From IMG/VR virus record IMGVR_UViG_3300010400_000043, positions 1 through 30,331 of that record: a stretch of DNA of 30,331 bases; one strand, 5' to 3'. The notes under the pieces were generated by a model. That model saw nothing but the letters and a program-made list of their open reading frames with translations, was not told where the DNA came from and searched no databases. A program made the position numbers and the translations under genes. Shown here in pieces: positions 19,098 through 29,721 of the stretch; the stretch's first letter is position 1; each line of letters starts with the position of its first letter. This DNA comes from a virus.

Positions 19098-19738
19098 GCA
19101 CTGAGCTGATTACCGCGGCTTCGGCTGAACGCATTGAGCGGATCAAAACTTACCATGCCAGTTGCCAGCGGGCAGGCGGAGACATTCTCGCGTATTGGGC
19201 GCTGACGGGACTGGAGCTTCTGGCTTTGAAGGAGGAGACCCCCCACGGTGAATTCGAAGATCTGAAGAAGCGGGAGTTCGGCGACATCCCGCGGGCCTGC
19301 CTGGGGCGTTATATGCAGTTCGCCGGCGATCTCAAAGTCAAATATCCCACTGTGGGATATTTGGTGGCTGACCGCTGTTTGCTGACGAATGGCGAGCTTT
19401 CCGGGGAGCAGCGCGAGACCGTTTTGCAGGCGGTTCACGAGGTAGCTGATGGCAAGACCGTGACGGCGTTTTTCCGTGAGTTGCGAATGATGCGGCAGCC
19501 GAAGAAGCAGCAGTATCACCGGCCAGGCCAAGTGGATGCGCAGAAGCAGGCCGCGCACGAAGCGAAACTGGCGCGCGACCACATTTTGACGCTGGCGCAT
19601 GACCTCGGGCTGGCGCGCGAGGAACTGCACCTGGTGGATGATGCGACGCGGGACGCGCTCTTCGATGCGTGCCTGGAGATCACGACTTTTGTTCGGGTAG
19701 CCAAACAATCAGGAGGCAGAAAAACCAAATGCAAATGA
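19094..19738 (+). CDS. DUF3102-like early protein
   Basis: 214 residues from MSTELITAA, overlapping the previous stop by 4 bases. The middle (AYWALTGLELLALKEETPHG, then EFEDLKKREFG and LGRYMQFA) recalls DUF3102-type proteins, which have a helix with LLxLK followed by xPHGxF. These are found on plasmids and phages and may bind DNA. The C-terminal third is a charged helix. Lies just upstream of the transposase gene, where Mu-like phages carry regulators of transposition. Confidence 0.55.
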   Translation: MSTELITAASAERIERIKTYHASCQRAGGDILAYWALTGLELLALKEETPHGEFEDLKKREFGDIPRACLGRYMQFAGDLKVKYPTVGYLVADRCLLTNGELSGEQRETVLQAVHEVADGKTVTAFFRELRMMRQPKKQQYHRPGQVDAQKQAAHEAKLARDHILTLAHDLGLAREELHLVDDATRDALFDACLEITTFVRVAKQSGGRKTKCK

Positions 19739-21777
19739 ATCCTGATCCAATAGAACCTCTCGCCGCCGGCATGCTGCCGGAGGAGAACTCCGGAGCGCGC
19801 TCGGACCTTTCCTCGGGTCCGGGGGTTTCGACGGACCCCGTTTGTGTCGCGCATGAAACACCGGCGGCGTTTTCCATCCCGGCCAGCGCGCAGGCTGAGT
19901 TCATCGCGCTGCCGGAGCCGGCCCGCGCCCAAGTGCTCAGCCGGCTGAAGGTGATGCAGTCCATCGCCGCGTCCGGCAACAAGCGTGCCACCTGCAGGTT
20001 CTATGCAGCGCGGTTGCGGGGAGTGCGCGGAGGCTCTGCACAGCGGTTTTATACCCTTTATTTCGCTTATCGAAAATCCGGCGACTGGCGGGTGCTGCTG
20101 GATCACGCGAAGGCGGGCATCAAACTGACTGGTTCGGCGTGCCACGCCGCGCTGCCTCGGGCGTTCCGGGAATTCTGGAAATCACTTTGCGAGGAGAACA
20201 AGCGGCGCGGCGGCGACAAGGCGGCGCATCGCGTGTTGCTGGCGATCTGGCGGACGCATTTTCATCCGACCATGCGCAAACCAGTCCGCGAGATTCCGGG
20301 TTATCTGCGCTGGCCGGAAGCTGATCCGGGCACGGGTGCGCCGCAGGGCTGGACCTACTCAAATCTGTCGCGGCATTCGCCGAACGCTTTCGAGAAAATG
20401 GTGGCGCGCATCGGGCGCAGCGCGGCGGGGGCGCATCGGCCGCTGGTGTATGGCACGCGCGCGGATCTGTGGGTGGGGTCGCATTATCTCTTCGACGATT
20501 TGTGGCATGACCATTTCGTGAATTGCCTGGACACGAAGAAGACCGGGCGTCCGCTGGAGTTTGGCGCGTTCGATCTGTTCAGCGCCTGCAAGTTCGCCTG
20601 GGGCATGCGCGTGCGGACCGAAAACGACGCGACCGGGAAAATGGAAGGCCTGAAGGAGGAGATGATGCGCTTCCTGCTGGCGAGCGTGCTGGCGCAGCAC
20701 GGTTATTCTCCACGTGGAACGGTGCTGGTGGTCGAGCACGGCACGGCGGCGATTCGCGACGACCTGGAGCGCGTGCTTTACGATTGCAGCGATGGGAAGA
20801 TCACGGTGGCACGCAGCGGAATGGATGGCGGCGGCGACGCGCTGGGAATTTACGCCGGGCGCGGCAAGGGCAACTTCCGGTTCAAGGCGGCTTACGAATC
20901 GCTTCACAATCTGGTCCACAACGAAATGGGGTTGCTGCCGGGCCAGACCGGGCCGAACCGTGAGACGCGGCCGGAGGCGCTGCACGGTTTGTTGAAGCGC
21001 AATGACGCGTTGCTGTGCGCGATGGCCGCGCTGGAGCAGGAAGCGCCCGAGCGCGCGAAGATGCTGCGATTCGATCTGCTGGAGTTCATGCAGTTCCAGG
21101 AGCTGGCCATGGAGATTTATCAGCGGATTAACGGCCGTGTGGAGCACGATCTGGAAGGGTGGGGAAAACAGATCGTACAAGTGCAGCGCAATGGGCATCC
21201 ATATTTCCGCCGCAAATCACCGACCGAAGTCTGGGACGGCGGCCGCAAGGAGTTGACGAAACTCGGCCCTCTGGCGATCGCGATGATTCTCGGACCGGAC
21301 ATCGGCATCGCGCGGACGATCTACAACGGCGTGACCGAAATTCAGGACAAGGAGTTGTCGGCCGATCCATTGATCTTCGACACGCACGGCGTTGACCGCG
21401 GCGAATACCAGGTGGTGCTGAATCCGTTCCTGCCGGACCGGCTGTTCGTGTTCAACACGAAAGGCGGGTTCGTGGCGGAGTGCCCGCGCATCTGGCGCGT
21501 GAGCCGGCTCGATCCGGAAGCGTTGCAGCGCGCTTACGGCCGGGCGCGAAAGATCGAGGGCGAAATGCTCGCGCCGCTGCGCGCGCGCGGAGCGAAGCTG
21601 CTGACCGAACAGACAGAGAACGCCCGGCACAACGCGGCAGTGCTCGGCGCCGGCAAAGCGCCGATCTCGACGCGCAAAATTGCGGCGGATGCTTTCGAGA
21701 GTCTGCCGGAGCCTGATCAACGCGGCGAGGAGGCGACGCCAGCGGAGGATCAGGAAACGTTGTTGGACAACATTTGA
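19729..21777 (+). CDS. MuA-like transposase (DDE superfamily)
   Basis: 682 residues. AGGAGG 12 bases upstream supports the ATG at 19729; another ATG at 19735 overlaps the previous stop. Catalyses strand transfer that inserts and replicates the phage. After an N-terminal DNA-binding half comes the RNase H-like core: FDDLWHDHF (D256 or D257), VVEHGTAAI (E336, where an Asp is usual), AAYESLHNLVHNEM (E390), then PGQTGPNRETRPEALHG. A Mu C-type beta-barrel follows (YQVVLNPFLPDRLFVF), and a charged tail that would contact MuB. Length is close to MuA (663). Confidence 0.9.
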   Translation: MQMNPDPIEPLAAGMLPEENSGARSDLSSGPGVSTDPVCVAHETPAAFSIPASAQAEFIALPEPARAQVLSRLKVMQSIAASGNKRATCRFYAARLRGVRGGSAQRFYTLYFAYRKSGDWRVLLDHAKAGIKLTGSACHAALPRAFREFWKSLCEENKRRGGDKAAHRVLLAIWRTHFHPTMRKPVREIPGYLRWPEADPGTGAPQGWTYSNLSRHSPNAFEKMVARIGRSAAGAHRPLVYGTRADLWVGSHYLFDDLWHDHFVNCLDTKKTGRPLEFGAFDLFSACKFAWGMRVRTENDATGKMEGLKEEMMRFLLASVLAQHGYSPRGTVLVVEHGTAAIRDDLERVLYDCSDGKITVARSGMDGGGDALGIYAGRGKGNFRFKAAYESLHNLVHNEMGLLPGQTGPNRETRPEALHGLLKRNDALLCAMAALEQEAPERAKMLRFDLLEFMQFQELAMEIYQRINGRVEHDLEGWGKQIVQVQRNGHPYFRRKSPTEVWDGGRKELTKLGPLAIAMILGPDIGIARTIYNGVTEIQDKELSADPLIFDTHGVDRGEYQVVLNPFLPDRLFVFNTKGGFVAECPRIWRVSRLDPEALQRAYGRARKIEGEMLAPLRARGAKLLTEQTENARHNAAVLGAGKAPISTRKIAADAFESLPEPDQRGEEATPAEDQETLLDNI

Positions 21778-21788
21778 GAGTAATCAAA

Positions 21789-22865
21789 ATGGAGGACGAT
21801 CAAAAACTTGCGGTCATCGAAAAGGGCGGCGCCGGCGTCATCAATGTGAGCGGGGACACCTGCACGGTGAAGACCGCCGATTATCCGGAGGAGCATCGCA
21901 ACCTGGTGCGCTGGCTGTTCGCGTTCGCGAAGGAGATGGAATGGAGCTGGGAGGATCTGGCGCGCGAAACGAAGATCAGCACGACGACGATGTATCGCGT
22001 GTGGACCGGCAAATACCGGAACACGGATACGGGCGAGCTGGTGGACCTGACCTCCCTCTGCGAACGGATCGCGCGATTCAAGGAGCTGGCCGAGGAACGG
22101 GCGCTGGCACGCCGGCTGCCGTTCATCGAGACGAGCGTGTTCCGCCGGATCGAGAAGGTGTGTCGCGAGGCGCTGATCATGCAAACGATCGCGATGATTT
22201 ACGGCGAGTCGCAGATCGGCAAGACCGAGAGTTTGAAGGAGGTCGCGCGCCGGAACAATCACGGGAACACGGTTTACGTGCTGATGCCCGCGAGCGCCGG
22301 CGTGCAGGCGATGATGAAAGCGATCGCTGAGGCGTGCCATATCAGCGTGCGCACCAGTTTCGAGCAGCTTCGCGAACGGGTCGGCAATTATCTGGATGGA
22401 TCGAAGCTGCTGGCGATCGACGAGATTCATGAATGTTTCGTGAGTTATCAGAAGTCTTCGCTGGTGAAGTGCCTGAGCGTGTTGCGGCAGTTGCAGGAGA
22501 TCAGCCAGTGCGGCCTGGTTTTGTGCGGCACGAATGTGTTCCGGCATGAGCTGGAGCGCGGGGAATTCTCGCAGTCGCTCAAGCAGCTTCGCAAGCGGGG
22601 CATCTGGGAGCTGCAGCTCGAGGATGCGCCGAAGGAGAAGGATCTGGCGGCGATCGCGGATTTTTACAAGCTGCCGGCGCCGGGAGGCGAGGCGGCCGAG
22701 CTGGTGAAATGGATCGGCAAGGAGATGGGTCTCGGGAAATACACGCGGTTCCTCGCGCGGGGCGCGCAGCTCGCCAACAAACGCAACGACCGGTTTGGCT
22801 GGAAACATTTCGTGGAGATCGTGGGCATCGCCACGAAGCTGAAACAAAAACAGGAGGGTCAATGA
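21789..22865 (+). CDS. MuB-like AAA+ ATPase, transposition target selector
   Basis: 358 residues from the ATG at 21789; a TTG at 21774 overlapping the transposase stop is also possible. ATP-dependent DNA-binding protein that captures target DNA and activates MuA. The N-terminal HTH (LARETKISTTTMYRVWTG) matches MuB's lambda-repressor-like domain. Walker A is GESQIGKTES (about 139-148), Walker B LLAIDEIHE (D211, E212), sensor LCGTNVF. The C-terminal small helical domain follows. Coupled to the transposase upstream and to the gene downstream, as in Mu. Confidence 0.9.
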   Translation: MEDDQKLAVIEKGGAGVINVSGDTCTVKTADYPEEHRNLVRWLFAFAKEMEWSWEDLARETKISTTTMYRVWTGKYRNTDTGELVDLTSLCERIARFKELAEERALARRLPFIETSVFRRIEKVCREALIMQTIAMIYGESQIGKTESLKEVARRNNHGNTVYVLMPASAGVQAMMKAIAEACHISVRTSFEQLRERVGNYLDGSKLLAIDEIHECFVSYQKSSLVKCLSVLRQLQEISQCGLVLCGTNVFRHELERGEFSQSLKQLRKRGIWELQLEDAPKEKDLAAIADFYKLPAPGGEAAELVKWIGKEMGLGKYTRFLARGAQLANKRNDRFGWKHFVEIVGIATKLKQKQEGQ

Positions 22866-23113
22866 GCACAAAGAAGATTTCCCGCGAAGGGGCGAAGGGG
22901 GCGAAGCCGGACAATTACGGAATTCCGCAGCAGGTGCTCGGGCTGGTTCATACAAGCGTGGATGATGCGCACTCACGTTTGTGGCACTGGACGGCGGCGG
23001 ACCTGAATGATCTGCGCAAGGCGCACGAACTTTGCGTTTATCAAGGCCAGAAGACCAAGGCCACGATCATCGCACGCCGGATCAGGCAACTGGAGAAAGG
23101 AGGCGGGCGATGA
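22862..23113 (+). CDS. Small early protein with repeat at N-terminus
   Basis: 83 residues; MSTKKISREGAKGAKP derives from a repeat copy placed just after the start codon. The rest is helical (QVLGLVHTSVDDAHSRLWHW, LNDLRKAHELCVYQGQ, TKATIIARRIRQLEKGG), resembling the core of the gene at 18771. Overlaps both neighbours by 4 bases. Function unknown. Confidence 0.5.
   Translation: MSTKKISREGAKGAKPDNYGIPQQVLGLVHTSVDDAHSRLWHWTAADLNDLRKAHELCVYQGQKTKATIIARRIRQLEKGGGR
22877..22907 (+). repeat. SREGAK-type dispersed repeat copy
   Basis: Near-consensus forward copy starting at codon 6 of the gene at 22862. Confidence 0.8.
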
Positions 23114-23394
23114 GCATGAAGATTTCCCGCGAAGGGGCGAAGGTGGCGAAGCGGAAATGCCGAAGATGTGGATGCACGGAAAACCGCGCTTGCCTGGAAG
23201 GATGCAGTTGGGCATTGGACACGGATATTTGCACCGCGTGTCTGACCGACACCGAAAACGTCATGTTGATGCTGGCCGCGTTTCTGCGCGTCGATGCCGA
23301 GTCTTTCTATAGACGGACGCTGAGTCGGGCCGAATCTGTAGAGAATTTTGTCCGGAGTTTATTGCTGAAGGAGAAGAAAGGAGGCGGACGATGA
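23110..23394 (+). CDS. Cys-rich zinc-binding early protein
   Basis: 94 residues. After a repeat-derived N-terminus (MSMKISREGAKVAKR) comes a dense Cys cluster: CRRCGCTENRACLEGC, then W, then DICTAC. It has eight Cys, enough for two zinc sites. Small phage proteins with CxxCGCT...C..GC.W....C..C are common in early regions and are presumed DNA- or protein-binding. The C-terminal half is helical. Coupled to both neighbours by 4-base overlaps. Confidence 0.6.
   Translation: MSMKISREGAKVAKRKCRRCGCTENRACLEGCSWALDTDICTACLTDTENVMLMLAAFLRVDAESFYRRTLSRAESVENFVRSLLLKEKKGGGR
23121..23152 (+). repeat. SREGAK-type dispersed repeat copy
   Basis: Forward copy placed at codon 4 of the gene at 23110, almost the same context as in the gene before it. 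Confidence 0.8.
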
Positions 23395-23996: not shown

Positions 23997-24190
23997 AAAA
24001 CGAATCCATATTACTGGCCGAAGCCGCCAGATTCAGGACGCTGGCCGCGGAGGCGGCTCTCAGTGCCTTGAATTACGTCCCAGGCGATGACAAGAAGCAT
24101 GCGGAAAATGTGCGGCTGGCGCGCGAACATGCGTTGCGAGCCGAGACATGTAAGGATGCCGCGCGATTGATCGGAAAGGGTGCAAAATGA
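23993..24190 (+). CDS. Small hypothetical early protein
   Basis: 65 residues from a GTG at 23993 that overlaps the preceding TGA (GTGA). Helical, Ala-rich (LLAEAARFRTLAAEAALSAL, then NVRLAREHALRAETCKDAAR). The stop overlaps the Gam-like start. Function unknown. Confidence 0.5.
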   Translation: MKNESILLAEAARFRTLAAEAALSALNYVPGDDKKHAENVRLAREHALRAETCKDAARLIGKGAK

Positions 24191-24720
24191 AATCATCATT
24201 AGCAGAGATCGAACGGTTCACCAAAGACTTCGCCGACGCTCGCGAGCGCCTGACGCAATTGGTGGGCGATATTGAATCGGAATTGGCAGCGGTCAAGCGC
24301 CGGCACATGGCGGCGTTGAAACGCTTCGTTGCGGGCACGGCTGAACGGCACGCGCGTCTCAAGGCAGCGATCGAGGAAACGCCCGAGTTGTTCGTCAAGC
24401 CGCGCACATTGATTCTGCACGGGGTGAAGATCGGCTTTCAGAAGGGCAAAGGCGGAATCGAGTTCGATAATGCCGACCGCGTGGTGGAGTTGATCCGCAA
24501 ACATTTCGACGATCCCGATGCGCTGATTCGCAGGGAAGAAAAGCCGGACAAGGAAGCATTGGCAAAATTGTCCGCCGCAGAGCTGAAGAAGATCGGCTGC
24601 GCGATCGTGGATGCCGGCGATCAGGTGGTAATCAAGCCGACTGATGGCGACGTGGAGAAGATCGTGAACGCGCTGCTCAAGGATTCCGTGGACGAGCCGG
24701 GCGTAAAGGAGGCGGCTTGA
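24187..24720 (+). CDS. gam: Gam-like host-nuclease inhibitor
   Basis: 177 residues. Mu Gam family: binds ends of double-stranded DNA and shields phage DNA from host exonucleases, a relative of bacterial Ku. Seen: long N-terminal helices (IERFTKDFADARERLTQLVG), then a beta part with PRTLILHGVKIGFQKGKGGI, followed by VVELIRKHFDDPDALIRREE, and C-terminal VIKPTDGDVEKIVNAL. Length matches Mu Gam (174). It lies downstream of the MuA and MuB genes as in Mu, with 4-base overlaps on both sides. The last gene pair of this style precedes the hairpin-spaced array. Confidence 0.88.
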   Translation: MKSSLAEIERFTKDFADARERLTQLVGDIESELAAVKRRHMAALKRFVAGTAERHARLKAAIEETPELFVKPRTLILHGVKIGFQKGKGGIEFDNADRVVELIRKHFDDPDALIRREEKPDKEALAKLSAAELKKIGCAIVDAGDQVVIKPTDGDVEKIVNALLKDSVDEPGVKEAA

Positions 24721-24935: not shown

Positions 24936-24940
24936 GCGAA

Positions 24941-25053
24941 CCACGAACTTATGAGCACACAAAAACCTGACAGCCTGATGCCGGACGACGCTGGACACGC
25001 ACAGGCCAAACCAAGTAGCCAGCCTCTAGGGTGTGTGCTCATAAGTGAAGTGG
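24941..25053. repeat. Long inverted repeat at left edge of cassette array
   Basis: ACTTATGAGCACAC at 24947-24960 pairs perfectly with GTGTGCTCATAAGT at 25033-25046, and CCAC/GTGG extends it beyond a small mismatch. The loop is 72 bases. It contains the ATG of the next frame. It may be an attC-like site without clear R boxes, or the left border of the array. A second hairpin (AAGCGA ... TCGCTT with inner CCGCC/GGCGG) follows at 25055-25088. Confidence 0.6.
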
Positions 25054-25448
25054 CAAGCGAAGCGCAGCCGCCGCAGGCGGGATCGCTTCAGCGAGTTTGT
25101 TCCGCAGCGAGCGCGAGCGAAGCAAGGGACAACGAAGCTGATACCTCGTCGCGTTCCGCGCGAGAAAGCGGCCGGGCGGCATGGCATCCGATTGAGACTG
25201 CGCCCCAAGATGGGACAAGACTGTTATTGTGGAGCGATGGGCAAATGGAAATCGGTTACTGGTCCACATGTATATGGGTGGGACGGGGCGCATGGATAAT
25301 TTACGAGAACCGTAGCGACACAATCGAATTAAACCCAACGCACTGGGCGACACTTCCTATGCCGCCAGACGCTCCCCCCGCAGCGGGGGAGCGAGCGCTC
25401 GCGCGGAACGCTCCGGGTGAGCGACTGCCCGGAAAACCAACAACGTAA
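24951..25448 (+). CDS. DUF551-like phage protein
   Basis: 165 residues in the open frame, but recognisable sequence starts only near residue 78 (WHPIETAPQDGTRLLLW), continues with GQMEIGYW and ends at NPTHWATLPMPP (about 145). That is the DUF551 pattern of small phage and prophage proteins of unknown role. The first ~75 and last ~20 residues overlap hairpin DNA and look non-native, so the true start may lie further in. Typical cassette cargo. Confidence 0.55.
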   Translation: MSTQKPDSLMPDDAGHAQAKPSSQPLGCVLISEVASEAQPPQAGSLQRVCSAASASEARDNEADTSSRSARESGRAAWHPIETAPQDGTRLLLWSDGQMEIGYWSTCIWVGRGAWIIYENRSDTIELNPTHWATLPMPPDAPPAAGERALARNAPGERLPGKPTT

Positions 25449-25510
25449 CTCTATGCCAAAAACTCAATTGCAACGCGGGTCGGCAGTTCGCTCCAACCGG
25501 ATTGTTCTGC
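25444..25510 (+). other. Degenerate attC-like site (candidate)
   Basis: Over ~65 bases it aligns by eye with the better site at 26035-26094 (TAAC, CTCT, CCA, AACT, GC, GCTCCA, CGG, TTGTTC, GCC in the same order), and the DNA just before each is also alike (GCGGAACGCTCCG). Only a short stem (AATTGC/GCAGTT) is clear. Either a decayed attC or remains of a duplicated border. Confidence 0.35.
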
Positions 25511-25761
25511 CGCAAGCGTTCAAATTCAAAAAGCTTCCGTCATCGGTGGACGGCTATGGAAATCGGCGCGCACTGATCTGCAATGGGTGCAAGAAAGTCC
25601 TGACGCGATGCGACCCCGGAAACGGCGCGGGATTCCGATACGCTCATGTAATGGAGCAAAACGCACAGAAAGAACACCTGCTCAAATGCTCGAAAGCTCG
25701 CCGAATGGTTAAAGCTCTCGAAAAGCAAATGCGGCAGAACGCGGGAGATGAGGCGCGCTGA
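25453..25761 (+). CDS. Zinc-binding small protein, hypothetical
   Basis: 102 residues from MPKTQLQRG. Contains CNGCKKVLTRC, then H, then HLLKC: a probable zinc-binding cluster. The C-terminal part is a basic helix (KARRMVKALEKQMRQN). The start lies inside the degenerate attC-like site, so translation may begin elsewhere in frame. The stop touches the next hairpin. Confidence 0.5.
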   Translation: MPKTQLQRGSAVRSNRIVLPQAFKFKKLPSSVDGYGNRRALICNGCKKVLTRCDPGNGAGFRYAHVMEQNAQKEHLLKCSKARRMVKALEKQMRQNAGDEAR

Positions 25762-26036
25762 TGAAAACTGACTCCAATCCAAAGGTTCCCGAATCGACTG
25801 CGGCGGAACAAGCGTCGCCTCCAGCGACCTTGTTCCGCGAATCAACCTTCAGACGGCTTGTTATAGCGAGATACTTCCTGTTCATCATTTTCCTCTTCGG
25901 TGCCTCGCTGGGATATGGCCAAATCGTCGTAGGTCTAATGTGGGCCTGCTGGACATTGAACGTCTGGATCCTTGAAGACATGTATTCGCGGAACGCTCCG
26001 CATGAGCTACCCGGCGCGAAGAACCAAGACGCATGA
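25761..26036 (+). CDS. Small membrane protein, hypothetical
   Basis: 91 residues in the open frame, whose ATG overlaps the previous stop. Residues ~36-70 are strongly hydrophobic (YFLFIIFLFGASLGYGQIVV, then GLMWACWTLNVWIL), one or two membrane spans. The first 30 residues are encoded by hairpin DNA. The end (SRNAPHELPGAK) resembles the end of the DUF551-like gene, as both lie before related hairpins. Function unknown. Confidence 0.45.
   Translation: MKTDSNPKVPESTAAEQASPPATLFRESTFRRLVIARYFLFIIFLFGASLGYGQIVVGLMWACWTLNVWILEDMYSRNAPHELPGAKNQDA
25762..25867 (+). other. Large imperfect hairpin, attC-like candidate
   Basis: The core is GCGGAACAAG (25803-25812) / CTTGTTCCGC (25829-25838), continued inward by GTCGC/GCGAC with one extra C, and outward by AAGGTT/AACCTT across an internal loop. 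The right edge reads GTTATAG. It begins one base after a stop codon. R boxes are weak, and the hairpin lies in the 5' part of the next open frame. Confidence 0.4.
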
Positions 26037-26094
26037 ATAACACTCTGGCCATCGAACTGCAGAAGCCCGCCGGGTTAGCTCCATGCGGTTGTTC
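26035..26094 (+). other. attC-like recombination site (candidate)
   Basis: R-type boxes GAATAAC (26035-26041) and GTTGTTC (26088-26094) pair along all seven positions, one as a G-T wobble. Inner arms pair imperfectly (CATcGAaCT against AGCTCCATG, with mismatches). Length 60 bases. It starts inside the stop codon of the membrane-protein gene. The left box fits RYYYAAC only at its AAC end. Confidence 0.5.
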
Positions 26095-26119
26095 AGCCTC
26101 ATTGTCGAGGGTGTGGGAC

Positions 26120-26629
26120 ATGCCGAACTCTGACACTTTCGACGTGCCATCCATCGCGGGCTTCGTGAAAAAGTATCTGATGAAATCCAAAATCTCGGTG
26201 GACTGCTTCTCGCGGAACAAGCGATGGACGACCTACACCAATGACCTGAATCCGAACACGGCGGCGGAATATCACATGGACGCCGAGGACTTCCTGACGA
26301 TGCTCGCGGACAAAGACATCGTGGCTGACCTGGTAATCTGTGACCCGCCATACTCGCCGCGCCAGGTGAAGGAATGCTATGACTCCATCGGTCTGCCCAT
26401 GAAGCAAACGGATGCGCTGCTCGGCATGACGCGCAAACGACTCAAGAGGCAAATCAATCGCCTCGTGCCGGTCGGTGGTGTGGTGCTGCACTTCGGCTGG
26501 AACACGGTCGGCATGGGCAAAGGCTGGAACATCGAAGAAGTGCTGCTCGTGTGCCACGGCAGCGACCACAACGACACAATCTGCATGGCCGAAAGGAAAA
26601 CGCCCGAATTACAGGAGACGTTCCTATGA
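26120..26629 (+). CDS. DNA methyltransferase (DPPY motif)
   Basis: 169 residues from MPNSDTF; GAGGG 8 bases upstream decides this start. S-adenosylmethionine-dependent N6-adenine or N4-cytosine methylase: catalytic DPPY at 75-78 (LVICDPPYSPRQ), an N-terminal NDLNPNTAAEYHMDAEDFL segment that fits the cofactor-binding side, and VGGVVLHFGWNTVGMG after it. Short, as is common for orphan phage methylases that protect against host restriction. Flanked by attC-like sites on both sides, no restriction enzyme nearby. Confidence 0.75.
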   Translation: MPNSDTFDVPSIAGFVKKYLMKSKISVDCFSRNKRWTTYTNDLNPNTAAEYHMDAEDFLTMLADKDIVADLVICDPPYSPRQVKECYDSIGLPMKQTDALLGMTRKRLKRQINRLVPVGGVVLHFGWNTVGMGKGWNIEEVLLVCHGSDHNDTICMAERKTPELQETFL

Positions 26630-26630
26630 G

Positions 26631-26717
26631 GCTGAACGGCGAGATCAGGCGCGGCGAGCCTGACGCAACGAACAAACCTGTGGGCGAATCGCCGTCGCCT
26701 GCATCGAATGGTTAAGC
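26631..26717 (+). other. attC site (strong candidate)
   Basis: GCTGAAC (26631-26637) and GTTAAGC (26711-26717) pair at 6 of 7 positions and match RYYYAAC/GTTRRRY (one mismatch in the left box). Inner arms pair as GAT-CAGGCG with CGCCTGCATC and CGGCGA with TCGCCG, leaving two single unpaired bases (C and T) on the right arm. 87 bases long; it starts 1 base after the methyltransferase stop and ends 6 bases before the next ATG. Confidence 0.65.
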
Positions 26718-26723
26718 ACGAAT

Positions 26724-27029
26724 ATGAAACTAGACCGAAACATCACGAACCCGAGACGTGGCAAATACGCGCTCATCAAACTGCGTGTCGCAACACCACG
26801 AATCATCCGCGACGAAAGTGGAGACGTGCGCGTAAAGGCGGAATCCGTTGACTTTGGGGACACCGAGGATTCGGATTTCTTCGTTATCCGGCTCAAAGAC
26901 AAGTATGCCGGACCTGCTCTCACGGCCTACGCAGTCGAAGCTGAACAAGATGATCCTGAGTATGCGAAGGAAATTTTCGCGCTCGCGGACAAGGCAAAGA
27001 ACCACCCAAATCGAAAGATGCCAGACTAA
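26724..27029 (+). CDS. Small cassette-type protein, hypothetical
   Basis: 101 residues, MKLDRNITNPRRGKYALIKL onward. The end of the sequence (DFFVIRLKDKYAGPALTAYA, then DDPEYAKEIFALADKAKNHP) matches a pattern I recall from small proteins of phages and mobile regions; no activity is known. Acidic, probably one compact domain. An attC-like site lies on each side, making it the best-delimited cassette here. Confidence 0.6.
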   Translation: MKLDRNITNPRRGKYALIKLRVATPRIIRDESGDVRVKAESVDFGDTEDSDFFVIRLKDKYAGPALTAYAVEAEQDDPEYAKEIFALADKAKNHPNRKMPD

Positions 27030-27031
27030 GT

Positions 27032-27133
27032 GCTTAACGACAAGCTCACCCCATGACTGCCGCGCCTATACGCTCCGAACTCGCCAATGATGCCCAACGC
27101 GGCAGTCATTGCGGGTGTAGCGGCTTGTTGTGC
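27032..27133 (+). other. attC site (strong candidate)
   Basis: GCTTAAC (27032-27038) matches RYYYAAC exactly; the partner GTTGTGC (27127-27133) pairs at 6 of 7. Next AAGC pairs with GCTT, CACCC with GGGTG, then TGACTGCCGCG (27054-27064) pairs perfectly with CGCGGCAGTCA (27098-27108), with unpaired C and T on the right arm. 102 bases; begins 2 bases after the preceding stop. Confidence 0.7.
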
Positions 27134-27142
27134 CACGTCAGA

Positions 27143-27481
27143 ATGTTCAAACCTCAATTTGCTCCGCTCGTGGAAGCGGGGACGAAATGCCAGACCGTGC
27201 GCCCGACTCCCAAACGGATGCCGAAAGCTGGCGACAAAATCAGCCTGCGGATGTGGACGGGAAAACCGTATCGAAGCCAACAGCGCGTGCTGCGTGAATC
27301 GGTCATCACTGCCGTCGAGCCATTCGACCTCGACGCAATGCGGCTCTGGAAAGAAAGTGACCGCGATGCGTTCGCACGAGCCGACGGCTTCGGGGACTGG
27401 CCGGAGATGCTTCAATGGTTCATCAAAACTCACGGCTACCCGTTCGTAGGCGTGACGATCAAGTGGCACAACAAGGATTAG
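27143..27481 (+). CDS. ASCH-domain-like protein
   Basis: 112 residues from MFKPQFAPLV, 9 bases after an attC-like site; the longer frame to 27053 runs through that site. The N-terminal FAPLVEAGTKCQTVRP followed by PKAGDKISLRMWTGKPYRS is the ASCH/PUA-like pattern, a fold that binds RNA or modified bases and is common in phages. The C-terminal half has WPEMLQWFIKTHGYPFVGV. The last cassette gene before the integrase. Confidence 0.65.
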   Translation: MFKPQFAPLVEAGTKCQTVRPTPKRMPKAGDKISLRMWTGKPYRSQQRVLRESVITAVEPFDLDAMRLWKESDRDAFARADGFGDWPEMLQWFIKTHGYPFVGVTIKWHNKD

Positions 27482-27501
27482 GCGACACCTGTTCGCATAT
27501 C

Positions 27502-28455
27502 ATGAAACGAGAGCATGCCATTGAACGTTTGCGGCAGGTGATCCGCCGCAAGCACTTCTCGCTGTCCACTGAGGAATCGTACTGCGGCTGGCTTCGACGC
27601 TATATGCTTTTCGTCCGCAAGCTGCGCTCCGGCCTGGCCAGCGAGCAAAAGGTCGAGGTGTTTCTGACCACGCTCGCCCGTGATGATGTGTCCGCTTCAA
27701 CACAAAATCAGGCATTCAATGCTTTGATCTTTTTCTATCGCGAGGCGCTCGGCCGGCCGTTGCAACGCGTGGATTCGCTTCGCGCCAAACGCGCCGCCGT
27801 TGTTCGTAATGCTCCCTCAGTCCAGGAAACGCGCGCGCTCCTGGGCGGCGTCAGGGACGCCAGCGGTTATCCGGTACGGCTGGTGGTGAAGTTGATTTAC
27901 GGCTGCGGGCTGCGCGTTTCAGAGCCGCTGAATCTGCGTATTCGCGATGTGCGGCTGGATGACAGCCGGTTGGTCATCCGCCAGGGCAAAGGCCGCAAGG
28001 ACCGCGTGGTGGCGATCCCGTGTTCGCTGGCTGGCGAGATCAAAGCGCAGATGGAATCAGCGCGGGCTGTGTGGCGACGTGATGTGGCGGCGGGTGTGCC
28101 GATCAAATTGCCGAATCAGATCGCGCGAAAGTATCCGCATTCGCAATTCGCCTGGCCCTGGGCCTGGTTGTTTCCCCTGGCGGCGCCGTGCGCCGATCCG
28201 CGCACAGGCGGGATCGTTCGATGGCGCATGTTGGAATGTAATGTGCAGCGCGCCGTCAAGCGCGCCGGCCGCAAGCTCGGGCTCGCGATCCTGCCGCATG
28301 AGTTGCGGCACGCTTACGCCACGCATTGCTTGAACAGCGGGCAGAATCCGCGGGCGATCCAGGAGGCAATGGGACACAGGTCGCTGGAGACAACGATGGG
28401 TTATTTGCATGCGGAAGCGCTCAGTGTGCGCAGTCCATTGGAGGTTTTAGTATGA
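27502..28455 (+). CDS. intI: Integron integrase-like tyrosine recombinase (IntI type)
   Basis: 317 residues from MKREHAIERL (IntI1 has 337). Full catalytic set: R138 (GLRVSEPL), K163 or K166 (GKGRKDR), H266 and R269 (PHELRHAYATH), H292 (MGHRS), nucleophile Y301 (MGYLH). Decisive is the segment at about 195-240 (LPNQIARKYPHSQFAWPWAW, then DPRTGG), equivalent to the IntI-specific insert with ARKYP...W.W.F...DPR...; simple phage integrases lack it. The SVRSPLEVL end also matches IntI1. IntI enzymes join folded single-strand attC sites to attI. The start lies 20 bases after the ASCH-like stop. Confidence 0.88.
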   Translation: MKREHAIERLRQVIRRKHFSLSTEESYCGWLRRYMLFVRKLRSGLASEQKVEVFLTTLARDDVSASTQNQAFNALIFFYREALGRPLQRVDSLRAKRAAVVRNAPSVQETRALLGGVRDASGYPVRLVVKLIYGCGLRVSEPLNLRIRDVRLDDSRLVIRQGKGRKDRVVAIPCSLAGEIKAQMESARAVWRRDVAAGVPIKLPNQIARKYPHSQFAWPWAWLFPLAAPCADPRTGGIVRWRMLECNVQRAVKRAGRKLGLAILPHELRHAYATHCLNSGQNPRAIQEAMGHRSLETTMGYLHAEALSVRSPLEVLV

Positions 28456-28739
28456 AAATTGCCCGCGAAGCAGCGATGGCAGCGAAGCCCGATTACAAAA
28501 TCTTTTGGGGTAACACCAAGCCCGAGGTAATTGCCGCCCTGAAGCGAGAGGCTGAGGCTCAAACACGTTTCTTCAAACCGTTCAGCGGGGAAACGCCTGA
28601 AGAGTTTGCCATCCGCGTCTGGGCCTGCGGATTTCTTTACAGCCGCGAATTTTACGCCGAGGCAGTTGCTTTGAGGCAGGCTGGTTGGCCGCCTGATCCT
28701 TCGCCTCCTTCGCCCCGTCGCGGGAAACATTCCGGATGA
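28452..28739 (+). CDS. Small hypothetical protein flanked by repeats
   Basis: 95 residues, ATG overlapping the integrase stop by 4 bases. A diverged forward repeat begins just after the start (MKIAREAAMAAKP) and a reverse copy forms the end (PPSPRRGKHSG). The core between is ordinary coding sequence (IFWGNTKPEVIAALKREAEA, then TPEEFAIRVWACGFLYSREF). Function unknown. Confidence 0.5.
   Translation: MKIAREAAMAAKPDYKIFWGNTKPEVIAALKREAEAQTRFFKPFSGETPEEFAIRVWACGFLYSREFYAEAVALRQAGWPPDPSPPSPRRGKHSG
28458..28489 (+). repeat. SREGAK-type dispersed repeat copy
   Basis: Diverged forward copy just after the start codon of the gene at 28452. Confidence 0.6.
28698..28731 (-). repeat. SREGAK-type dispersed repeat copy
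   Basis: Near-consensus reverse copy forming the end of the gene at 28452, 4 bases before the next start. Confidence 0.75.
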
Positions 28740-29248
28740 CTGCGCTACCATTCAACCAGGCATTAAAACTCGCCGAGAAGATCAAGGCCGAACTGGCGCC
28801 GTTTTGTGAACGAATCGAGATCGCCGGGAGCATCCGGCGCCGGCGGCCTTTCGTGAATGATATTGACCTGGTCTGCCTGCCGCTGGCGGATCAGGTGAAC
28901 GCCTTGCGCGCGCGCGTACTGGCGAAAACGCAGCCGATCAGTGATGGTCCGCAAACCATTCTCACTCGGCTGGCGAATGGCGTGCAGCTCGACGTCTGGA
29001 TCGCGCAGCGGCCGTTCAAGGATATGTTTTTCAATACGCCGACGAATTTTGGCAGTTTGCTGGTCTGCCGTACCGGGAGCAAGGAGCACAACATCTATCT
29101 CTGCCAACAGGCGGAGAAGCTCGGGCGCCGATGGAATCCGCATTTTGGGGTGTTCGACAACGGTAAATGCCTGGGCAGCGCGACGGAGGAGGAGATTTTC
29201 AAGGCGCTCGATCTGGAGTTCGTGCGACCGGAGGATCGGGAACGATGA
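28736..29248 (+). CDS. Pol X-type nucleotidyltransferase
   Basis: 170 residues, ATGA-coupled to the gene before. Polymerase beta-like palm: GSIRRRRPFVNDIDLV (about 31-46) has the GS...DxD metal motif, and the third carboxylate is in VQLDVW. The thumb-like end has GSKEHNIYLCQQAEKLG and FGVFDNGKCLGSATEEEIF, the pattern of Pol X C-terminal subdomains. It lacks the helix-hairpin-helix and 8-kDa domains and the PHP nuclease of full enzymes, so it is a minimal nucleotidyltransferase. Likely gap filling or end repair of phage DNA. Confidence 0.8.
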   Translation: MTALPFNQALKLAEKIKAELAPFCERIEIAGSIRRRRPFVNDIDLVCLPLADQVNALRARVLAKTQPISDGPQTILTRLANGVQLDVWIAQRPFKDMFFNTPTNFGSLLVCRTGSKEHNIYLCQQAEKLGRRWNPHFGVFDNGKCLGSATEEEIFKALDLEFVRPEDRER

Positions 29249-29721
29249 GTGGCAAATCACCAATGTTCCCGGAATCGGAGACGCGTCCAGTGCTGCAGGT
29301 CGGATGCGTCGAGTTGGATCGCCGGAGCTTGATTGATGAAGTGCGCTCTTTGCGCGCTGCGGTGGAGCGTCTTTATTTGCGGGTCAAGCATCAGTCTCAC
29401 CAGGCCGAAGATCTGCTTGAAGTTGTCATGGAGTTGGCCGCGGTTGAATTCGCGCGTGAATGTGAACGGTGGCGCACGTGGATGCTCAGCCAAAACCGTT
29501 CAGAGCCCAAGGTCACCGCGAGGATGGTCGCGATGAAATTGTGCGTTGAAGTCCTGGGATGGGGGAAAAATTACACTGGCCGGCGCTTCAAACACGATCG
29601 GGGCACTGTCATGAACGCCTGCCGCTCAATCGGTCGGCGATGTGATGTGGATGATCGTTTTTTTAAGCGTTATCAAGCGGTTGCGGCCAAAGCGCGGGCT
29701 TTGTTGCCGGAGTTGAAATGA
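29245..29721 (+). CDS. DnaA domain IV-like DNA-binding protein
   Basis: 158 residues from MSGKSPMFP, 4-base overlap with the gene before. The first half is a charged coiled helix (RRSLIDEVRSLRAAVERLY). The second half (about 90-145) matches the DnaA C-terminal helix-turn-helix: ARMVAMKLCVEVLGWGKNY, then GRRFKHDRGTVMNACRSI, where DnaA has ARQ..MYL...L, GR.FGGRDHSTV.HAC.KI. The AAA+ domain is absent. It may bind a DnaA-box-like site, as replication regulator or transcription factor. Confidence 0.65.
   Translation: MSGKSPMFPESETRPVLQVGCVELDRRSLIDEVRSLRAAVERLYLRVKHQSHQAEDLLEVVMELAAVEFARECERWRTWMLSQNRSEPKVTARMVAMKLCVEVLGWGKNYTGRRFKHDRGTVMNACRSIGRRCDVDDRFFKRYQAVAAKARALLPELK

Follow-up and report, generated by a model that had tools for sequence, protein, structure and literature searches.

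The DNA considered here is a virus record of IMG/VR (IMGVR_UViG_3300010400_000043), and the whole stretch of 30,331 bases, called the window below, was analysed. The window very probably holds a phage-borne integron that forms part of the early operon in a Mu-like Verrucomicrobiota phage, with the open reading frames (ORFs) of its gene cassettes facing the attI site and the integrase gene intI. A probability of about 0.9 is given to this explanation as a whole. Bacterial integrons are textbook gene-capture devices in which the cassettes face away from attI and are read from the cassette promoter (Pc). In the window, the array and intI all lie on the + strand between Gam (24187-24720) and further early genes. 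As judged from its sequence, the array comprises six cassettes and grows from attI away from intI; five attC sites are well formed, and each cassette has matched R boxes.

Integrase, attI and cassette array of the window

The integron contains the following features, in order along the window:

24949-25408, + strand: cassette 1 (distal); ORF 24951-25448, DUF551-like (E 3e-4); R boxes GTTCCGC (25099-25105) and GCGGAAC (25403-25409) match 4/4
25403-25510, + strand: attC between cassettes 1 and 2 (covariance model E 2.7e-9)
25409-25739, + strand: cassette 2; ORF 25453-25761 (102 amino acids); R boxes GTTCTGC and GCAGAAC match 4/4
25734-25838, + strand: attC between cassettes 2 and 3 (covariance model E 2e-8)
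25740-25993, + strand: cassette 3; ORF 25761-26036; R boxes GTTCCGC and GCGGAAC match 4/4
25988-26097, + strand: attC between cassettes 3 and 4 (covariance model E 1.5e-12)
25994-26636, + strand: cassette 4; ORF 26033-26629, adenine-methyltransferase-like (DPPY motif; weak MethyltransfD12, Cons_hypoth95 and Dam matches); R boxes GTTCAGC and GCTGAAC match 4/4
26631-26717, + strand: attC between cassettes 4 and 5 (covariance model E 3.1e-15)
26637-27037, + strand: cassette 5; ORF 26724-27029, no function assigned; R boxes GTTAAGC and GCTTAAC match 4/4
27032-27133, + strand: attC between cassettes 5 and 6 (covariance model E 1.5e-8)
27038-27471, + strand: cassette 6 (attI-proximal); ORF 27053-27481, ASCH-like (ASCH E 0.0045, below the Pfam cut-off; phrog_8581 E 7e-12; 62.6% identical relative in contig L019); R boxes GTTGTGC and GCACAAC match 4/4
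27470-27501, + strand: attI, AACAAGGATTAGGCGACACCTGTTCGCATATC, directly 5' of intI and conserved in ~30 relatives
27502-28455, + strand (ORF open from 27415): intI, phage-clade integron integrase of 317 amino acids, assigned from TIGR02249, PDB 2a3v, relatives and tree

The IntI protein scored 268.3 bits against the TIGR02249 integron integrase model (cut-off 265), and Xer models stayed far under their own cut-offs. Its top PDB match was VchIntIA (2a3v, E 5e-47), in an alignment that spans the IntI-specific insert. An alignment with 13 relatives showed R138, K163, R269, H292 and Y301 to be invariant in the clade and H266 nearly so. Relatives at 51-71% identity came from ~30 viral contigs and five contigs of Verrucomicrobiota metagenome-assembled genomes (MAGs). 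Chromosomal IntIs outside the clade, including those from 289 Verrucomicrobiota genomes, were clearly more distant, and among these 289 genomes a clade IntI occurred only in one MAG that was already known. On a quick tree, the root of which is not to be read because the Xer outgroup row (L125) had a very long branch and was unusable, the window IntI was sister to L002 within a group of 27 phage and five Verrucomicrobiota MAG rows. The phage label changed 15 times on this tree vs 45.9 times with shuffled labels. By its sequence, the window IntI is a member of a largely phage-associated clade within the integron-integrase family.

A second set of phage IntIs (L022-L029, L033, L145, L149-L161) was ~35-42% identical to the window IntI, and some contigs with such IntIs carry Gam and MuB (L025, L032). 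The "xerD" of Rctr41k (L134, KX853513) is an IntI relative at 38% identity; attC-like matches lie downstream of it on the other strand, and this case was not counted.

Directly before intI, the window and ~30 relatives share the attI consensus AAC-A-RTGATT-ANGCAAC, followed in many loci by GGTTCGTATATC-ATG. The bases 5' of the attI AAC are variable and are part of the adjoining cassette. Traced cassettes stop exactly at this AAC, as do exact-bounded duplicates in L002 and L142. The cassette junctions at AAC in these loci point to attI beside intI as the insertion point, and the crossover (AA^C, or G^TT as read on the - strand) would fall between 27471 and 27472.

Cassettes were traced outward from attI by pairing a start box GTTNNNN with the cassette's own end box NNNNAAC, of which it is the reverse complement, together with an L'/L'' stem. 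This tracer, which pairs each cassette with itself, replaced a first simple hairpin scan that missed attC sites with R boxes from unlike cassettes. The attI-proximal cassette was traced in 91% of 34 loci and in 2.9% of 340 dinucleotide-shuffled controls, and 111 cassettes were traced overall. Perfect R''/R' pairs were found in 101/107 traced cassettes vs a mean of 5.4 (maximum 16) under shuffling; as the tracer itself favours matched boxes, the shuffled-sequence control is fairer than this count. In the window the pairs were perfect in 6/6 cassettes, which is achieved by 2 of 720 pairings.

A covariance model of attC, comprising the R', L', L'' and R'' elements, was built from 48 attC sites of other phages with the window excluded. 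It found exactly five attC sites in the window, all on the + strand between the accessory genes (E 3e-15 to 2e-8; next best 0.11). The same model was strong in a chromosomal Verrucomicrobiota integron, L095 (~20 matches), and gave no signal in seven integron-free relatives of Mu type (L124, L211-L213, L215-L217). Because the attC family is shared with L095, the cassette machinery is probably of Verrucomicrobiota origin. Rfam gave no attC family match for the window, with matches at chance level only. A 15-bp inverted repeat (ACTTATGAGCACACA ... TGTGTGCTCATAAGT; window 24950-25046) lies within the degenerate distal attC and covers the region where the DUF551-like ORF starts.

An earlier note on this DNA had described an IntI-type tyrosine recombinase and six small genes separated mostly by attC-like hairpins, in a one-strand locus between Gam and further phage early genes. 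These observations were borne out: the recombinase groups with integron integrases and not with ordinary phage integrases, and the attC model scores five of the hairpins. The note had missed attI directly before intI, the reversed orientation of the cassette ORFs and prior work on phage integrons (PMC9892861).

Duplicated cassettes and second attI sites

Duplicated units were found in several relatives of the window, all of them in assembled metagenomes. L002 carries two copies of a 251-bp unit (99.6% identity), one in the array and one touching attI, and identity stops exactly at the AAC cores. L142 contains a duplicated 364-bp unit (364/364 identical), of which one copy adjoins attI. The two copies of a 286-bp unit in L039 are likewise identical (286/286), and the second copy lies at another attI, at a distance of 5 kb. 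A 305-bp duplicate with 100% identity and AAC at both ends was found in L026, whose IntI is more distant. Additionally, L013 and L020 have one cassette in common (87% identity).

The duplicates of L002, L142 and L039 are discrete units bounded at G^TT, and their boundaries at the R-box cores suggest the footprint of integrase-driven shuffling by an enzyme that would be active. Capture and shuffling of accessory genes, as proposed in the earlier note, gain support from this duplication and sharing of cassettes bounded at the R-box core; the related phages do not carry the same genes in a fixed order without boundaries at the hairpins.

The second attI of L039 (L039:15030-15350) is 26/26 identical to the first. 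Further attI-like copies away from intI were found at L041:5276 and 6115, L023:9981 and L035:1723 (- strand). Cassettes were traced at the second copies in L039, L035 and L041, in the last at one of its two (5276). The methylase-like cassettes at the second attI of L041 and L035 are related, at ~70% DNA identity.

Small overlapping genes and stray recombinases occur in phage early operons, and on that ground the locus could be taken for a fixed operon in which the tyrosine recombinase is an ordinary one and the hairpins arose by chance. The attC E-values, the matching of the R boxes, the conservation of attI and the exact-bounded duplicates refute this reading, to which next to no probability is given.

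Orientation, reading frame and cargo of the cassettes

Phage arrays and chromosomal arrays have attC sites of like polarity relative to intI and attI. Both show the unpaired base of the stem mostly on the same arm (94 vs 12 phage sites; 35 vs 4 chromosomal sites), and the attC model matches both on the same strand relative to intI. ORF direction, scored by one rule, differs: 30 chromosomal ORFs point away from intI and 3 towards it, whereas 2 phage ORFs point away and 73 towards it (Fisher 6e-21; undecided cases, 7 and 32, left out). The + ORFs of 87 phage cassettes had 81 PHROG and 32 Pfam family matches, and the best - ORFs of those cassettes had none. Since attC polarity is shared and the ORFs are flipped, the phage cassettes bear attC at the 5' end of the gene, unlike canonical cassettes, in which the ORF leads away from attI and attC stands at the 3' end. 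A canonical Pc in intI or attI would read the wrong strand of such cassettes. Across the sequences compared, the reversal of the ORFs relative to attC and attI polarity is the real novelty of the system.

The ORFs would read away from attI, as in textbook integrons, if the array had canonical polarity with attI at its far 5' end, unreversed ORFs and intI merely downstream. An attI at that end was rejected, as the conserved site adjoins intI. The attC model and the unpaired-base bias show chromosomal-type polarity relative to intI, and the duplicate copies stand at the intI-side attI or at its second copy; a far 5' attI is very improbable.

If the phage had taken up a fragment of a host chromosomal integron, as Vibrio anguillarum phages did (Qi et al., 2023), the attC family common to the window and L095 would be explained. 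Against such an uptake, the IntI clade occurs in ~30 viral contigs and in a single known MAG of the Verrucomicrobiota genomes searched, the phage IntIs are strongly clustered on the tree, and the ORF orientation is opposite to that of chromosomal arrays. Further phage contigs of the clade largely show this reversed architecture too, with no chromosomal array to match it. IntI and array do not closely match a host chromosomal integron of that type, and the uptake of a fragment is rated as quite unlikely. An ancient host origin of the phage integron is compatible with these data.

The reading frame of the phage cassettes was also biased at the crossover. Each ORF begins in or just after its own attC, often lacks a stop of its own and passes the R-box Asn codon (AAC). 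Among the ORFs that run out through the R-box core, 60/61 have AAC as an in-frame codon (frame 0), and 14 further cassette ORFs end at a TAA inside the R box. Read-through ORFs stop in the leader of the next cassette, usually near its ATG, or in attI. The first leader stop in the read-through frame lay within -20 to +12 bases of the cassette's own ATG in 62/91 cases vs 22 and 32 in the other frames (p 2e-9). In the window, the stop codon of cassette 6 is supplied by attI, and ORFs overlap by 1 base (cassettes 2-3) and 4 bases (cassettes 3-4). Start/stop overlap (ATGA) was rejected as evidence by itself, because an A commonly comes after ATG. The informative measure is instead the frame bias, which suggests standardisation for a coupled operon. 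In the window (25417-27481) and in relatives, attC encodes N-terminal residues of many cassette proteins (e.g., VAVQRVVR in L002 and L014), so that the recombination site is partly coding.

The identifiable cassette genes encode mainly DNA methyltransferases (Dam, N6_N4, C5), a Mom-like protein, PAPS reductase, HNH and radical SAM proteins, and the majority of cassettes have no identifiable function. DNA-modification cargo plausibly suits an anti-restriction role.

In the proposed mechanism, IntI would excise cassettes via folded single-stranded attC and put them back at the AA^C of attI (G^TT on the opposite strand). Cassette ORFs, phage early genes and intI share one direction, so each incoming cassette would become part of the early transcript, with its translation coupled to that of its neighbours. 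The phage could thereby swap accessory genes, mostly for DNA modification where identifiable, without a cassette promoter.

A broader proposal is favoured with modest confidence only, namely that phages evolved their own kind of integron. Its cassettes would be operon modules that lack a promoter and often a stop, and in which the frame at the recombination core is standardised; in a coupled early operon they could then be combined in any order. A phage genome could have several attI sites, and a pool of DNA-modification genes would circulate among unrelated Verrucomicrobiota phages.

Phage setting and comparison with known systems

Three genes upstream of the array bear on the Mu-type setting:

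19708-21777, + strand: putative MuA-position transposase (position and relatives in Verrucomicrobiota genomes)
21774-22865, + strand: MuB-like transposition ATPase (phrog_296 E 5e-33; TniB/AAA_22)
24187-24720, + strand: Gam-like DNA end protection protein (PF07352 E 2e-9; phrog_491 E 3.6e-18), which marks the early operon

Family models identified the MuB ATPase and Gam in the early operon, and many neighbouring genes of the region overlap by 4 bases. Relatives of the MuA-position protein were found in 34/289 Verrucomicrobiota genomes, and MuB adjoins them in 6/7 loci read, which also indicates the host phylum. MuB as a search query found no relatives among viral contigs. Two other Mu-type contigs showed a comparable placement, with the array directly after Gam in L015, directly after MuB in L041 and before intI in both. 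Mu markers were missing from most other carriers of the integron, and a terminase was present in 17/42 records searched, which are not all of the window's IntI clade.

Downstream of intI, the early operon encodes PolX-thumb nucleotidyltransferase-like and DnaA domain IV-like proteins (window 28736-29721). A short repeat encoding ISREGAKAAK-like peptides recurs across the early region (window 18110, 22859-22890, 23116-23150, 23510 and 28450-28720).

Several points weigh against an integron at work in the early operon of a Mu-like phage. The MuA assignment of the 19708-21777 product is putative, being made from position and relatives, and the protein had no Pfam, PHROG or PDB match of its own. 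A sigma-70 scan found no convincing promoter on the + strand; strand and gene overlap suggest that the cassettes would be transcribed with the early operon from a phage promoter. Upstream of the first gene, the distal attC (24943-25105) is degenerate and reaches only E ~1 with the covariance model. The array of the window offers structure, with no caught recombination event or duplicate, as the duplicates are all in relatives. Lastly, the relatives found did not include a close one with other cassettes than the window, so its lineage offers no direct example of gain or loss.

The degenerate distal site and the lack of a duplicate would fit a fossil array in the window phage, real and intact in sequence but with its mobility lost. 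Against a fossil, IntI is intact and retains every catalytic residue, the scores of five attC sites are good, and none of the six R-box pairs has a mismatch; the loss of mobility is considered unlikely, and a phage integron with its cassettes facing attI and intI is preferred.

Phage integrons with opposite orientation and a fixed frame at the crossover would mean that recombination chemistry and expression logic can be uncoupled. Phages would gain a site-specific route for trading accessory genes, and the origin of modular, exchangeable phage accessory genes becomes directly testable.

The earlier note had known of no described transposable phage with this arrangement. In the open literature searched (subscription papers and preprints being outside the scope), no description was found of phage IntIs forming a clade whose cassettes are reversed and standardised in frame. 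Integron parts in phages as such had been reported before. Qi et al. (2023; PMC9892861) described attC clusters as well as complete integrons from isolated phages, both being pieces of host or class 1 integrons, and phage attC sites were shown to be functional with IntI1. Their integrons and clusters of attC sites lacking integron integrases (CALINs) come from Vibrio phages p16 and p42, P1 L-II, Shewanella M16-3, P12002L, TJE1 and PH101. The attC model used here gave no match in P12002L or TJE1. Those systems resemble that of the window in having integron parts in phage genomes and methyltransferase genes in phage attC clusters. The integrase there is absent, of class 1 or of a host type that shares 75-95% identity with chromosomal integrases; a phage integrase clade with co-linear, reversed cassettes was not described there.

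Sedentary chromosomal integrons (L095; the Vibrio cholerae type with IntIA) likewise have an IntI with its specific insert, an attI next to the 5' end of intI, paired R boxes, the same attC polarity and mostly one gene per cassette, and L095 is recognised by the same attC model. The phage form differs from them in ORFs that run towards attI and intI, short arrays (1-9 cassettes traced), placement in a phage operon and a separate IntI clade. In atypical integrons of the Treponema type (PMC3607928), intI shares its strand with the cassette ORFs, as in the window, but it is directed into attI, and the ORFs lead away from attI. In the window, in contrast, transcription of intI proceeds away from attI, into which the ORFs read. 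Mom/Com of Mu and other phage anti-restriction genes are likewise accessory genes that modify phage DNA, and differ in that the genes described here stand in recombinable cassettes.

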